Assembly (NCBI GenBank): GCA_031280035.1
Contig: JAITHJ010000040.1
Coordinates: 1 to 38,866, forward strand
Source of the DNA: Spirochaetaceae bacterium
Lineage (GTDB): Bacteria > Spirochaetota > Spirochaetia > Treponematales > Breznakiellaceae
Length of the DNA: 38,866 bases
Direction: 5' to 3'
Shown: in pieces, positions 6,271 through 30,688 of the stretch
How positions within the stretch are numbered: position 1 is the first letter of the stretch
Layout: the number at the start of each line of letters is the position of its first letter
Translations under genes and position numbers: made by a program
Notes under the pieces: model-generated
Told to the model about the DNA's origin: nothing
Databases searched by the model: none
What the model saw: the letters and a program-made list of their open reading frames with translations, nothing else

Positions 6271-6312
6271 GGGTTATTGTTAATTTTTATATTTAGTTGT
6301 AAAATAACCGCC

Positions 6313-8329
6313 ATGAAAAAAAAATATTCGCATCTTGCACTTGTGTTCGTTATTGTTATGTCGTTTTTCTATGCAGTTATTTCAATTCCATTGATACGGC
6401 AGCAATTTGTTTCATTTTTGTGCAGAAACTCTACGCGTCTGTTGTTGGAAAGCATAATAGGACGAACCCTAAATCCTCTTACTTTAGAGTCCAATTGGGA
6501 TAAATTTATCACGAAAATAATTTGGGACGGTACATTTTTATTAATTTTATCAGCGGCTTTATACATAGAATTGTGCGTAATAAACTTCAAACGGAGCCGT
6601 AGCAAAACGGCGGTTGTATGTATTACTGTCTTACTCTATTTTTCATCAATGGGTATGAATACAGTAGGCGGTGATTTACATTTTCATTTAGATAGGATAG
6701 AAGAGCTTGCGTGCGCCATAAGATCAGGAGATATTCCAACTCACTTTGATTACTCTGTTGCTTCAAAAGCAGGTAGTGGTAAGTCGATAGATTATCCAGA
6801 ACTATTTTTATATATTCCTGCCTTACTGCGGGTGTTTGGAGTGCCAATTAGTATCACATATATATTGTTTTACATTCTTATTAATGCAGCAACCATTCTA
6901 ATCGCATATTACTCCATGAACAGGATCACACGCTCAAGATGTATTGCTTTAATATTCTGTGCGCTTTACAGCCTCTGTCTTTATCGTCTTATCGATATGA
7001 ATCTTCGTGCCGCTGTGGGTGAGTCGCTTGGTATGATCTTTGTTCCGCTTACTATAGCGGGAATCTATGGGATTTTTTATGAAAAAGATGAAAATGGTAA
7101 AAGGAAATGGCTTACCCTTGCAATAGCGATGAGTTGCATACTACAAAGTCATGTCATTACATTTCTTTTAACAAGTGTTTTTATAGCTTTTTTTCTGATT
7201 GTAAATGTTAGAAGAATTAATAAGCAAATCATTGCAGCAATAAGCAAGGCCGCCGTTGTATGTATTCTGTTAAACCTATGGTTTATAATACCTTTTATAT
7301 CGTACTATAAATATATAAGACATACAATGCCATTTGACTTGTATCTTACAGCGGTTTTTCCAAGACAGATATTCGCACCATTCGTTACGGATAACAGCAG
7401 ACAAGATTTGTATACACGCGATACAACCGCCGGAGAGATGCCGCTGTCGCTCGGCATAACAACGCTTCTTGGCATCATTGCCTTTATTACAGTGTGGAAA
7501 TCGCCGCTGTTTCAGCGGAAAGTGCGCTTTAACGGCATAAAACAATTTGGTACACAGGCTTTATACTACGGTCTTTTTGCGTTGTTTATGGCATCAACGC
7601 TTTTTCCCTGGGTATCCCCGCCAGAAAGATCAGAATGGATCCCGTTCAATTTCTTTAATCATATTCAATTTGCATGGCGTTTTTTTATTATCGCAGCTCC
7701 TCTGTTGTGTATGACGGGGAGTATAGGATTTTATTTTTTCTATAACTGTAAGAATGGGGGGGGGGGGGCAAAAACGTCTTATTTTTCTCTATACCGCAAT
7801 ATGCGTGGTAGGTAGTCTTTACTACAATATAAGTGTATTTGTAAAACCGGATAAGTATAAAAAAATAGAAAATTATTTTTTTGAATTTAATCCGTACAAA
7901 GGTGCAGATACTGAATATTCGCTTGCACACACTCTTAAGCCTCAGCCTTCTACAGGTGCCATACTCATTACAAATTATAAACAGGAACGCTCTAACATCG
8001 ATCTTTCGTATACTATTGCCGAAGATACCGCTGTGATGCGAAACGCTTTTATAGATTTTCCACTTTACAATTTCAAAGGTTATAAGGCACTGTTTAATAA
8101 AACCGTTCTGCTTAATATAAAAACAGGGACTAACTATTTTATTAGAGTTACCCTCCCCATTGCAGAAAGAAGCGGAACAATAACGCTCCGTTACAAATAC
8201 CCTCCACAATTCTTTTTTGGTTATGCTGTCTCTATTCTTACTCTCGCAGCTTTAATATGGAGGAACTTGTTCTTCAGAAAGTTTACACTACTTCAGAATA
8301 TCTTACAAAAAAGATACAGACAACGCTGA
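6313..8329 (+). CDS. multi-TM membrane protein, PTPS-related/GT-C-like, split into two frames (ORFs 6277..7815 and 7754..8329) by a 13-G tract
   Basis: ORF1 (GGDLHFHLDRIEELACAIRSGDIPTHF..., many TMs) loses frame at the poly-G; ORF2 resumes in frame +1 with a TM (LIFLYTAICVVGSLYYNISVFV); removing one G joins them. Confidence 0.75.
7756..7768 (+). repeat. poly-G tract, 13 G, intragenic (gene out of frame)
   Basis: agaat-GGGGGGGGGGGGG-caaaa read directly. Confidence 0.95.
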
Positions 8330-18116: not shown

Positions 18117-20018
18117 CTATTTTCTGCCCCACAGGGCGTTGTAATAATCAGAGCGCCGTCCGATTTCCTTGTTGAGGTACTCCGCGCCGTCCTTCTCAAG
18201 CAGGGTGCGCGTCTGTAACGATCTCCCCAGCGCAAGGCCGTCCCCCTCAAAAGAACCGCCTACAGCCTGAACAAGGAGGGGCAGCATATCGAAGTGAGAG
18301 AGCGCCCTGCCTTTCGCCTGTGCGGGATTGAGCGGCGAATTGATGAAGATGTTCAGCGGATAGCGGTGAGTCTGCGCGCTTTGCGCGTGAAAACCGGCGG
18401 GAAACATCCACGAATCCATGTACAGGTGGTCGCCCAAGATGACAACGGTGGTGTTTTCGTAAAAATCCTGCTTTTGTATCCATGAAACGAAGTCAAAGAG
18501 CATCGTATCGGCGTTGTAAATGACGTTTTTGAACGGCGTATCGAAGATCTGCGCGGCCTGTTTGTCAAGAAATTCCCCCGGCGGGTGCGTATCCACGGTC
18601 AACAGCGCGATAAAGAACGGATTTTCGTCCCCGCGCGCGATTTTCGGGATGATGCGCTTGGCAAAACGGTAGAGCTTGCGGTCCTCAACGCCCCAAAACG
18701 TACGGTATTCTTTGTCAATAAAGCCGTGTTCTTCAAAATAGAGGTAATCGAAGATTTGCGCGTCTTTGTGCGTCTTGAAATACTTGTCCCGCCCGCCGAA
18801 AGCCGCGTCCGACCCGCAGAAAAAGTAGTTCTTGTAACCGGCGGCGGCCAGAATGTCGCCGAGCCCCGAGCCGTTCTCAAGAAAGCGGTCGAACACCTTC
18901 CCGTAATCGTTGACTCCCCTGCCGCGGTTGATAAGAGAAACGGCCAGCGGCGTGCCGGAAAGGTAGGAGGTGATGCCCGCCACCGTCCAGCCTGCGCCGT
19001 TCAGCTGGGTAACGCCGCCTATCCCCTCGCCGGCGCTGAAATTGACGTTCCGGCGCGCGAGCTCCGTAACATGGGGGAGCAGATCCTCGTCAAACGCGCC
19101 GCCGTTTTCCTTGGTGAGGAAACCGGTCTCCAGCGATTCGACAAAAATCACGATAAGATTGCGCTTCTTTTCGGGAAACGCGATCGCGACATCCCGCGGC
19201 GGGATGTAGTTTTCCTCAAAAAAGGACGAGGACGGCTCGTTCAATGCGCGCGCGTAGTAAACGGCGGTCGCGATCACCACGCCGATGGCCGCCACGGACA
19301 CCGCTCCCGCGCAGACCGCGGCGATTTTCTTGAAAAGCTTGAACGGAAGGACGTACACGCGGCCGTTAACCGTTGCCTCATACGAAAAAAGGAACGCTGC
19401 GAAGAGCGCCGGCGCGCCCGAATTGACAAGCGGCGCGAGGATAAGACCGGTAACCATGCTCCAATTCGCCCCGCGGGTGGGAAACATCACGTGAAACAGC
19501 AGCTGCTCGATCGTAACGATCCCGTATTTTGCAAGAAACGAGAGAATTACGCAGACAAAGAACGTAAACAGCCACATTTTGAACAGCGCCGCCGCGGGAA
19601 TCGCGCCCGCGGCCTTGCGCGTTATAACGATCTTCTTCCTGAACGCCGTGTACGCGCACAGAAGGACGCCGTTGAGCGCCGTTGCCGTCGCCACGAACTT
19701 GAGGTTGAACGGCTCCCAGTTAAAAGGAGACGCCAAATACTCCAGCGCGTCGTACGTTGAACGGAGTTTGTACAGCTGGAACAGAAAAAGGTGCGCCAGC
19801 GCGAAAAAAACCGACAGGGAAACGTACCGTTTGACGAGCAGCAGCGCGCAGGATGCGGCCTTTTCGCGCGCCCGCCCGCGTTTTTCGCGCCCGGGGGCGC
19901 CCTCGCGCGCCTCGTGTAAGGCCGCGCGCGCGGACGTGAACAGCCAATACGCGAAATAGGGGGCGGTAACCAGAAAAAACGCGCTTATCAGCGCCCCGAA
20001 GGAGTACTTATCGTTCAT
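18117..20018 (-). CDS. LTA-synthase / OpgB-like phosphoglycerol transferase (sulfatase-fold) membrane protein
   Basis: N-terminal TMs then RNLIVIFVESLETGFL, TSYLSGTP, DTHPPG, VVILGDHLYMD alkaline phosphatase-superfamily motifs. Confidence 0.85.
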   Translation of the reverse strand: MNDKYSFGALISAFFLVTAPYFAYWLFTSARAALHEAREGAPGREKRGRAREKAASCALLLVKRYVSLSVFFALAHLFLFQLYKLRSTYDALEYLASPFNWEPFNLKFVATATALNGVLLCAYTAFRKKIVITRKAAGAIPAAALFKMWLFTFFVCVILSFLAKYGIVTIEQLLFHVMFPTRGANWSMVTGLILAPLVNSGAPALFAAFLFSYEATVNGRVYVLPFKLFKKIAAVCAGAVSVAAIGVVIATAVYYARALNEPSSSFFEENYIPPRDVAIAFPEKKRNLIVIFVESLETGFLTKENGGAFDEDLLPHVTELARRNVNFSAGEGIGGVTQLNGAGWTVAGITSYLSGTPLAVSLINRGRGVNDYGKVFDRFLENGSGLGDILAAAGYKNYFFCGSDAAFGGRDKYFKTHKDAQIFDYLYFEEHGFIDKEYRTFWGVEDRKLYRFAKRIIPKIARGDENPFFIALLTVDTHPPGEFLDKQAAQIFDTPFKNVIYNADTMLFDFVSWIQKQDFYENTTVVILGDHLYMDSWMFPAGFHAQSAQTHRYPLNIFINSPLNPAQAKGRALSHFDMLPLLVQAVGGSFEGDGLALGRSLQTRTLLEKDGAEYLNKEIGRRSDYYNALWGRK

Positions 20019-20049: not shown

Positions 20050-20061
20050 GGGGGGGGGGGG
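20050..20061. repeat. poly-G/C tract, 12 nt, 31-43 nt upstream of the phosphoglycerol transferase ATG
   Basis: gcgc-GGGGGGGGGGGG-cgaag on + strand (C on the strand of the downstream gene). Confidence 0.95.
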
Positions 20062-27097: not shown

Positions 27098-27157
27098 TCG
27101 CGCAAGGCCGCCCTTTGCGTATTGAAGTCTTTTGAATCGCGGGGTATACTCGCCTTT

Positions 27158-28186
27158 ATGACTACCAATGACGCATACGGCGCGGGCGCCGCCGCCGCCG
27201 GCGCGGATTGTGCCGCCGCCGGCGCGAAAACAGGCGCGGTTTTCCTCTCCGTTGTCGTCCCCTGCTTCAATGAAGAGGCGGCGATAAGGCTGTTTTACGC
27301 CCGCTGCGCGGAAATTCTTCCCGAAATGAAGATACCCTGCGCGCGGGGGGGGGGGGGAGTGAGTTTTGAGCTCGTGTTTGTCGATGACGGCTCGAAGGAC
27401 GGCACGCTGGAAGTTCTGCGCGGCCTTGCGCGCGCCGATGAGCGCGTTCATTACCTGTCGTTCTCGCGCAATTTCGGCAAAGAGGCGGCGATGCTCGCCG
27501 GATTGAGGGCCGCCGCCGGCGATTATACGGCCGTTATGGACGTTGACGGGCAGGATCCGGTGGATCTCGTCCCCGAAATGCTCGCCGTTGTCGCCGCCAA
27601 AGACGCCGACTGCGCCGCCACGCGGCGGGTTGACCGCGCCGGAGAGCCGCCGGTGCGCTCGTTCTTCGCCCGCCGCTTCTACGCGCTGATGGCGAAGATC
27701 ACCGACATCGACATTGTTGACGGCGCGCGGGATTTCCGCCTGATGAGCAGAAAATACCGGGACGCCGTTCTCTCGCTGCCCGAGCGCGGGCGGTTTTCTA
27801 AGGGGATTTTCCCCTGGGTCGGCTTCAAGACGCGGTGGTTTGAATACGAAAATATCGAACGCGCCGCCGGCGATACAAAATGGTCGTTCAAAAAACTGTT
27901 TTTGTACTCGCTGGACGGCATTATCGCGTTCTCCGCCAAGCCGCTCGCGTTCGCCGCCGTCTGCGGCTTCGCAATGTGCGCCGCCGCGCTCGTGTTTATG
28001 GGCGTGATTATTGTACGAAAATTCATGTACCGGCTCCCCGACTCAGGCTGGTCGTCGATTATGTGCGCCGTGATTTTTACCGGCGGCGTTCAGCTTGTCG
28101 CAACGGGTATTCTGGGGCAGTACCTCGTGAAAATATACGCCGAAGTAAAACAGCGCCCCCACTACGTAATACAGGAGGCGCGGTAA
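27158..28186 (+). CDS. GtrB/DPM1-like family 2 glycosyltransferase with two C-terminal TMs
   Basis: LSVVVPCFNEEAAI, FELVFVDDGSKDGTLEVL, MDVDGQDPVDLV, DFRLMSRKY; internal G13 tract in frame. Confidence 0.9.
   Translation: MTTNDAYGAGAAAAGADCAAAGAKTGAVFLSVVVPCFNEEAAIRLFYARCAEILPEMKIPCARGGGGVSFELVFVDDGSKDGTLEVLRGLARADERVHYLSFSRNFGKEAAMLAGLRAAAGDYTAVMDVDGQDPVDLVPEMLAVVAAKDADCAATRRVDRAGEPPVRSFFARRFYALMAKITDIDIVDGARDFRLMSRKYRDAVLSLPERGRFSKGIFPWVGFKTRWFEYENIERAAGDTKWSFKKLFLYSLDGIIAFSAKPLAFAAVCGFAMCAAALVFMGVIIVRKFMYRLPDSGWSSIMCAVIFTGGVQLVATGILGQYLVKIYAEVKQRPHYVIQEAR
27345..27357 (+). repeat. poly-G tract, 13 G, intragenic (in frame)
   Basis: tgcgc-GGGGGGGGGGGGG-agtgag, encodes CARGGGGVSF. Confidence 0.95.
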
Positions 28187-28924
28187 ATGGATTTGCGCGA
28201 AAGCATGCTTGAGAATAAACGCCACCCGTGGGAATTATCACGGGCGGATTGTCTCTTTAACATCGTCAAGAAACATCATTTGAATACCGCCGCCGATATC
28301 GGAGCCGGCGACGGATTCTTTATTAAGAAGCTTGCCTCCGTTATTGCCGGCGGCCTCTACGCCGTTGACGCAGGCTACGCCGAAAAAGAAACATTTTCCG
28401 GCGGCATTCATTATAAAAATGATATTTCCCTCCTGCCCGAGCCTGCGGGGGGGGGGGGGAGCGGAATAATTCTCATGGATGTTCTTGAACATGTTGAAGA
28501 CGATGCGGCGTTTCTTGATAAAATCCTTGAGAAAACCCCCGAAGACGGCTTGATTATCATTACCGTTCCGGCGTTTCAGTTTTTGTTTTCCGCCCATGAC
28601 CTGTTTTTGAAGCATTACCGCAGATACAATAGAAAAACACTGCGCGCTTTGCTGGCCCGCCGTGTGCATATAGAAAAATGCCATTACTTTTACGCAAGCC
28701 TCTTTCTGGCGCGGGCCGCCGGATTCTTTATAAAACGAAAACAGCTTTCAGGTATCGGAACGTGGCGTTTTTCAGAAACAAGCGTTGTAACGCGGTTTAT
28801 TCGCGCTGTTCTGAATTTCGATTTCTATCTGTGCGCCTTTCTCGCGCGGTTTCACTTCTATCCGCCCGGTCTGTCATTGCTTGCCGTATGCCGGAAGACA
28901 CGCGAAAACCGACATTCAAGATAA
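28187..28924 (+). CDS. class I SAM-dependent methyltransferase
   Basis: NTAADIGAGDGFFIKKLA motif I, IILMDVLEHVEDDAAFLDKI; ATG directly after the GT2 stop. Confidence 0.88.
   Translation: MDLRESMLENKRHPWELSRADCLFNIVKKHHLNTAADIGAGDGFFIKKLASVIAGGLYAVDAGYAEKETFSGGIHYKNDISLLPEPAGGGGSGIILMDVLEHVEDDAAFLDKILEKTPEDGLIIITVPAFQFLFSAHDLFLKHYRRYNRKTLRALLARRVHIEKCHYFYASLFLARAAGFFIKRKQLSGIGTWRFSETSVVTRFIRAVLNFDFYLCAFLARFHFYPPGLSLLAVCRKTRENRHSR
28447..28459 (+). repeat. poly-G tract, 13 G, intragenic (in frame)
   Basis: cctgc-GGGGGGGGGGGGG-agcgg, encodes EPAGGGGSG. Confidence 0.95.
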
Positions 28925-28942
28925 TTATAAGGAGACAAACCT

Positions 28943-30688
28943 ATGTTTTTCAATCGTACTATTACAAGCCGCGCCGGTGATTTTTTCAACCGCATCCGTC
29001 CGCCTGTGATACGCAGGGATAAACGGATTATCGCGCTGTTTGTGTTGTTTTTTTGCGGCTGCGCCGCGGTAACGCCCTCTTTTATGCGCGCGTTTATCAT
29101 TGAACTGGCCGAGCGCTTTGTGGTACACAGAAAGCTGACCGCGCCGGTTTGGATGGAATTTTTGCTGCAGGCGTCAATAAAAAGTGTAGCGCTGTCTGTT
29201 CCGGCTCTTTTAGGATACCTTTTTATCGACCTTAAAAAAGGTCTTGAAAAACAGCCGGCGGCGGATTTTTACCGCAGGGCGTTTATAAAGCCGGTTTCCG
29301 GTATGTTTGTACTGTACGCGCTGGGAATGACGAGTATTATCCGCGCTGATTTTCTGTACGGATACGATGATATATTGAGGGCGCTTAGTATAAGGGGGCG
29401 CGAATGGGATTTCAGCCGGCACGTTACCAATTCTCTTGCGGTGATTCTTCATGCGGATACCCGCCCCGCCGATATATCGCCGCTGCCGCAGCTGCTCGCC
29501 GCGCTGTTTCTTGCCGCCGCCGGCGTCCTGCTCGTTTACGCCGTATCCGGCGGCAGAATAACCAAAACCGCCTGCTTTGTAAGTTTATCCGCAGGCCTCT
29601 CCCCGCTCTTTCTTGAATGTCTTGCCTTTAAATTCGATGCGCCCTATATGGCGCTGTCAATTCTTGTCAGCGTTGTTCCGTTCTTATTCGTTAGGGATTT
29701 TGTGGTTTTTTCATTCGTTTCGTTCGTTTCGCTCCTCGTTATGACTATGACGTACCAGAGTTCTTCGGGCATCTATATTATCGTCGTGATTGTTTTGTGC
29801 CTGAAGGCTTGGAACGAACGGAGCGAAACCGGTAAACGGATACTTTGTTTTGCGGGAGTTTCCGCATTGTCGTATTCGCTCGCTTTGGTCTATTTTCGCG
29901 TGTTTTTTATGGAGTCGTTTACAAGACAGAATATAACGACGGATGTTTTTTCTGCCGGCCGCTTGTTTTCCGGCGTTCTGGACAATGCCGTTGTGTATAT
30001 GCGGACTGTAAATAACGACTACGCTTTAGTATGGAAAATTCTGACGATTCTTGTCTGCGTAATGTTTTTGGTAAAAACAGCGGTTTCAACAAAAAGAAAT
30101 AAGGCCGCCGCGCTTGCCGTTTCTCTGGCGGCGCTCACCGCAATGTGCGTCCTTTCCTGCGGCGTTTATTTGGTTTTATCAGGAATGAACTTCTACCGGC
30201 CACGTTACCTGTATGGATTCGGCGTGTTCATTGCCATAGCGGGAATTCATGCCGTTCATGGGGAGGGGGTAATTGGAAAGATAACGGCCGTTCCCGCCGT
30301 TTTATTAAGCTGGTGTTTTGTGGTATTTTCGTTTTTATACGGCAATATGCTTTCCGATCAAAGAAAATACAGTGATTTTAGAGCCGGTATTTTGGTACAT
30401 GATTTGTCGGTGTTGTTTCCCCAAAGAACGGGTGAAAAGATAAAAATAGAAGGCGGCGAGGGCCTTGCTCCGTCTATTCAAAATAGAGTGGCGCGCTATC
30501 CGATACTGCCCAAACTTATTATGACGCGCATCGTGCCGTCGTACAGTGTTCATTATCTAAAAGGTTATTACAACTTCGACCTGCAAGACGATGAACAGAT
30601 AGAAGACGCCGGTTTGGATACCATGCTCGATTCATACTATCACACAATAAAAAGCGACGGAAACCGTATCGTAGTGATACTAAAATAA
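28943..30688 (+). CDS. GtrII-like polytopic glucosyltransferase
   Basis: About 12 TMs, FLYGYDDILRALSIRGREWDFSRHVTNSLAVIL and SPLPQLLAALFLA pattern resembling GtrII (PF14264-type). Confidence 0.7.
   Translation: MFFNRTITSRAGDFFNRIRPPVIRRDKRIIALFVLFFCGCAAVTPSFMRAFIIELAERFVVHRKLTAPVWMEFLLQASIKSVALSVPALLGYLFIDLKKGLEKQPAADFYRRAFIKPVSGMFVLYALGMTSIIRADFLYGYDDILRALSIRGREWDFSRHVTNSLAVILHADTRPADISPLPQLLAALFLAAAGVLLVYAVSGGRITKTACFVSLSAGLSPLFLECLAFKFDAPYMALSILVSVVPFLFVRDFVVFSFVSFVSLLVMTMTYQSSSGIYIIVVIVLCLKAWNERSETGKRILCFAGVSALSYSLALVYFRVFFMESFTRQNITTDVFSAGRLFSGVLDNAVVYMRTVNNDYALVWKILTILVCVMFLVKTAVSTKRNKAAALAVSLAALTAMCVLSCGVYLVLSGMNFYRPRYLYGFGVFIAIAGIHAVHGEGVIGKITAVPAVLLSWCFVVFSFLYGNMLSDQRKYSDFRAGILVHDLSVLFPQRTGEKIKIEGGEGLAPSIQNRVARYPILPKLIMTRIVPSYSVHYLKGYYNFDLQDDEQIEDAGLDTMLDSYYHTIKSDGNRIVVILK

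Follow-up and report, generated by a model that had tools for sequence, protein, structure and literature searches.

A probable doubly phase-variable gtr-type glycosylation cassette in a termite-gut relative of Treponema

Two neighbouring genes of a spirochaete contig, one for a sugar-donor synthase and one for a methyltransferase, each contain a run of 13 guanines, and this raises the question of whether they form a doubly switched glycosylation operon or carry these runs for another reason. In this work, the whole stretch of 38,866 nucleotides was analysed (the window), which is contig C7 of a metagenome bin (1.43 Mb, 74 contigs, 64% complete). We propose, with a probability of about 0.72, that the locus, from a relative of Treponema in the termite gut, is a gtr-type glycosylation cassette in which two genes are switched on and off independently at the level of translation. 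The two neighbouring genes probably act in turn on a surface sugar, the first in making it and the second in methylating it.

The first gene (27158..28186; this and all other features of the cassette are on the plus strand) encodes a GT2 protein of 342 aa. It matches PF00535 (8.9e-29), PgfS (3.7e-91, under the PgfS equivalog cut-off) and the structure 5ekp, the GtrB-type enzyme sll0501 of Synechocystis (1.7e-64); by these matches, it is the GtrB-like polyprenyl-phosphate sugar synthase of a gtr operon. A promoter-like site, TTGAAG-N17-TATACT (27122..27150), ends 7 nt 5' of the GT2 start, and with 9 of 12 matches in a consensus scan it is weak by itself. The GT2 stop codon TAA (28184-28186) abuts the methyltransferase ATG (28187-28189) in a 0-nt junction, and an AGGAGG Shine-Dalgarno site (28173..28178) can be read 8 nt 5' of this ATG. 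The methyltransferase gene (28187..28924, 245 aa) is followed after 18 nt by a third gene (28943..30688) with a Shine-Dalgarno site of its own, AAGGAGA (28929..28935). Its 581-aa product carries no tract, matches PF14264 (4.7e-34) as a GtrC/GtrII-type membrane glycosyltransferase does, and is 33% identical to the product of the gene after gtrB-gtrA in L108, a locus from another genus. This layout agrees with the preliminary description, which had placed the methyltransferase directly after the GT2 stop within one operon, and the three genes are presumably co-transcribed. A polar effect of GT2 loss on the two downstream genes, also raised there, is uncertain: it may occur but is not favoured, since each of these genes has a good Shine-Dalgarno site. 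With no gene between GT2 and the methyltransferase, gtrA is not in the operon, and the cassette is therefore named gtr-like rather than a complete gtrABC operon with its GtrA flippase. In the (incomplete) bin, a GtrA domain was found only on contig C48, as a fusion with another GT2. The fourth gene of L113, a Treponema locus from the termite gut, was considered as a GtrII homolog and rejected for want of sequence support.

The window contains G13 runs at 7756-7768, 27345-27357 (in GT2) and 28447-28459 (in the methyltransferase), and a G12 run at 20050-20061. Besides these four, no G run is longer than 6 and the longest C run is 9, whereas first- to third-order Markov models predict only 1.6e-4 to 1.7e-3 G runs of at least 12. 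The two tracts of the cassette are thus long in-frame mononucleotide tracts beyond chance, and at the genome's own density, at least two tracts in a 3.5-kb operon have a P of about 0.003, a post hoc value that assumes uniform density. The lengths are the assembly consensus of one genome and could be off by one. The coordinates and reading frame given for the methyltransferase tract in the preliminary description are exact, the peptide EPAGGGGSG just before GIILMDVLEHV is borne out by the sequence, and the stated distance of about 1.1 kb corresponds to 1,089 bases between the two tracts. At G13, both genes are full length (ON). GT2 is cut to 67 aa at G12 and 70 aa at G14, the methyltransferase to 93 and 100 aa, and G10 and G16 restore full length in both. 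One base lost or gained therefore turns either gene off, as in a contingency locus, so that the two proposed switches each have a clean OFF state.

We hypothesize that each G13 would gain or lose a base during replication by slipped-strand mispairing. Any length of 3n+1 (10, 13, 16) would keep the gene in frame, and other lengths would stop translation within about 10 codons. With GT2 OFF, the lipid-linked sugar donor would be gone; with the methyltransferase OFF, the sugar, or the glycan carrying it, would be left unmethylated. The four phenotypes named earlier (glycan absent, unmethylated, methylated, and enzyme without substrate) are a plausible reading of this 2x2 design, not a result. That the locus is a contingency locus is well supported and probable.

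The GT2 run occupies a loop which is shorter in most of 12 aligned orthologs. In L108, whose operon is gtrB-gtrA-gtrII, a C16 run coding for prolines is present in the same loop, also in frame; since the coding strand has poly-G here and poly-C there, the two tracts appear to have independent origins. Of 21 GT2 orthologs in relatives, 4 carry a tract within or shortly upstream of the gene where 0.6 would be expected (P of about 0.003, post hoc and at uniform density), and in-gene tracts alone show no enrichment (1 against 0.5 expected, likewise post hoc). The frameshifted GT2 of L106 (genome G003) was examined as a tract-switched gene and rejected, as it is without a long tract and would reflect decay or another kind of event.

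The methyltransferase has a glycine-rich motif I (DIGAGDGF), an AlphaFold model with a mean pLDDT of 90 and Foldseek matches to diverse SAM methyltransferases, which together identify it as a class I Rossmann-like SAM methyltransferase; its match to PF13489 is borderline (26.9 bits, cut-off 27). Its G13 consists of the third base of a GCG codon and the four GGG codons after it, codes for AGGGG, and falls in a predicted loop (residues 83-91 in the AlphaFold model) just before the strand with ILMDVLEH. The Gly run at this site is unique to this protein in an alignment of 26 homologs. The sequence is LPEPAGGGGSGIILMDVLEH here and FPK-LNTTGSVVLLMDVLEH in the termite-gut Treponema ortholog (L113/L137, 52% identical), where LNTT stands in place of the Gly run. 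The gene is found in five family members, and only the present one has an in-gene tract. A search of phage records for the methyltransferase found nothing, and neither did a search of viral contigs that used its flanks on either side of a tract of variable length.

A scan of GTDB genomes recovered 28 methyltransferase homologs, several of them in termite-gut bins (Fibrobacterota, Treponema), a label which rests on sample codes such as Nt197 and Th196 that also appear in papers on termite guts, PMC7024585 among them. Most of the closer homologs of the methyltransferase have a GT2 as immediate neighbour, and these pairs are mostly without tracts. Neither congener has the pair at the thresholds used, and the cassette is patchily distributed. 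The closest relative of the methyltransferase is in a Fibrobacterota bin (L133-L139), with 59% identity against at most 53% for the Treponema orthologs, which suggests that the pair has moved horizontally within the gut. L143 (Treponema sp. Im510_bin3) has the methyltransferase first, then GT2 and then a second methyltransferase (MT2), with a C14 run about 25 nt before the start codon of the first gene and a G16 run inside MT2. The MT2 family is also present in the genome studied here, ON at G10 (L041:2615-3337, contig C33), and the G16 of L143 (L143:6383-7081, ON) lies at the same codons; in a congener (L170), MT2 is OFF with a G12 at a different loop. Variation between species is thus seen in tracts similar to those of the cassette.

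It could be argued that both switches are real but unrelated, with the methyltransferase acting on something other than the GT2 product and no joint glycan phenotype. The borderline Pfam match, the diversity of the Foldseek matches and the lack of a GT2 neighbour in some distant homologs fit such a reading. We consider it unlikely, as a GT2 of the same type adjoins the methyltransferase in Fibrobacterota, Treponema, Bacteroidetes, Deltaproteobacteria and Firmicutes, and because the pair recurs across phyla, the shared pathway assumed in the preliminary description is probable. The chief argument for a likely link between methylation and donor synthesis is this recurrent pairing, and the cassette sugar is the presumed substrate of the methyltransferase. 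A different objection concerns selection: G/C runs may lengthen by biased slippage, and survive and mutate where frameshifts cost little, in accessory surface-sugar genes and intergenic DNA, and not be maintained as switches. Many of the tracts in the bin are indeed intergenic, the number of G/C runs of at least 10 varies from 0 to 157 among family relatives (40-genome sample) against 32 in the bin, and the patchiness of the cassette agrees with drift as well. On the other hand, the tracts in recognised genes are mostly in glycosyl-, acyl- and methyltransferases, two genera retain the MT2 tract at the same codons, the same GT2 loop acquired poly-G here and poly-C elsewhere, and MutS is present, so that drift appears distinctly improbable. 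Loss of mismatch repair was rejected as the cause of the many tracts, given that MutS_I was found in this genome and in 38 of the 40 searched.

The remaining two explanations deny genetic switching in different ways, and both have very little probability in our judgement. Short-read data are prone to errors in poly-G length, and in a fragmented, incomplete metagenome bin the runs, or at least their lengths, might be assembly errors. Both tracts are nevertheless mid-contig, in conserved genes and at an in-frame length; relatives from other assemblies have coding-strand poly-C, and the MT2 tract is common to an independent bin. The runs might also be fixed glycine linkers or sites of programmed transcriptional slippage, which would yield full-length and truncated protein in a fixed ratio; as assembled, both genes are ON, and a Gly run can act as a loop. 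Homologs do without the Gly run, however, GGG is used in both tracts though Gly is preferentially encoded by GGC in the window, and out-of-frame translation terminates at once in products of no apparent function. A doubly switched cassette thus remains the preferred reading.

The mechanism of such a cassette is already familiar from pathogens, and in kind the cassette joins the lgt genes of Neisseria and the capsule genes of Campylobacter. In Neisseria, lgtA, lgtC and lgtD (poly-G) and lgtG (poly-C) encode phase-variable LOS glycosyltransferases (PMC6400993), and as here, several glycan-transferase genes each carry an in-gene homopolymer which acts by frameshift and truncation. The enzymes and the lineage are different, switching is demonstrated there and inferred here, and there is no methyltransferase among the lgt genes. 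The capsule heptose methyltransferase cj1426 of Campylobacter jejuni is itself phase variable, and capsule/LOS genes including cj1420-1422 have poly-G tracts (PMC8437040), so the combination of a glycan methyltransferase with switched neighbours is shared; strain NCTC11168 has 29 poly-G/C tracts (PMC8437040), a number close to the 32 counted here. In this unrelated organism, however, the locus is a capsule locus and not a gtr-type cassette, and phenotypes were measured. The gtrABC operons of Salmonella and Shigella (PMC3688519; PMC2909390) have a GtrB-like donor synthase and a GtrC-like transferase, with phase-variable expression in Salmonella by a DNA-methylation-dependent mechanism (PMC2909390). 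Control there is by promoter DNA methylation, with neither a homopolymer nor a methyltransferase gene, and gtrA is missing from the operon here. In Treponema pallidum, with which the genus name is shared, poly-G length also controls expression, as in tprL (PMC7864442), but the tracts there are in promoters of outer-membrane protein genes and not in the reading frames of glycan enzymes. No relevant paper on phase variation or slipped-strand mispairing in termite treponemes was found, and this absence is not proof.

Most work on surface-glycan phase variation has dealt with human pathogens; the 32 tracts, the two adjacent switches and a second similar cassette suggest that this strategy is also used by gut symbionts. 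Based on the poly-G and poly-C in the same GtrB loop and on tracts in three different methyltransferases, we tentatively suggest, at somewhat less than even odds, that homopolymer switches have arisen several times independently in the donor-synthase and methyltransferase modules of insect-gut treponemes, with phase-variable glycan methylation as a standing strategy. If true, such methylation would help symbionts, in defence against phages for instance, and would not be chiefly a device of pathogens. The locus itself is a defined 2x2 of donor synthesis by methylation, in which the joint states could be counted directly on long metagenomic reads.

Elsewhere in the same genome, the assembly has four further transferase genes that a single base puts out of frame (OFF). 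The second cassette, on contig C48 (L047:5721-10077), contains the GT2-GtrA fusion, a PMT_2 protein and a methyltransferase. Its PMT_2 gene is OFF at C10 and would encode 712 aa at C11, and its methyltransferase, a third one besides the two above, is OFF at C18, with 268 aa at C17; by prediction, the cassette is a second transferase-plus-methyltransferase double switch. An MBOAT O-acyltransferase gene (L050:8320-9824, contig C62) is OFF at G10 and gives 501 aa at G11. In the window, the third G13 splits a DUF6541 membrane protein gene (6277-8329), which yields 500 aa here and 671 aa at G12. A homolog in L141, where it comes after a GT2-methyltransferase pair, aligns to both sides of the tract in two frames, weakly on the second side (E 0.007), and the DUF6541 protein may be another phase-variable transferase, OFF here. 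Among single genomes of the family, G349, G414, G010 and G013 have 150 to 285 G/C runs of at least 10, and G402 has none, although nearly all of the genomes checked have MutS. An 898-aa protein with a YidC-type 60KD_IMP domain (L054:5435-8131, contig C69) has an in-frame G13, which is unusual for a membrane-insertase relative; the DNA similarity of this contig to the methyltransferase tract was discounted, as it seems to come largely from the G run. The G12 of the window is located 32 bases upstream of a minus-strand gene with a sulfatase domain (18117-20018) and 242 bases before a plus-strand LolA-like gene, and could act on a promoter or leader.
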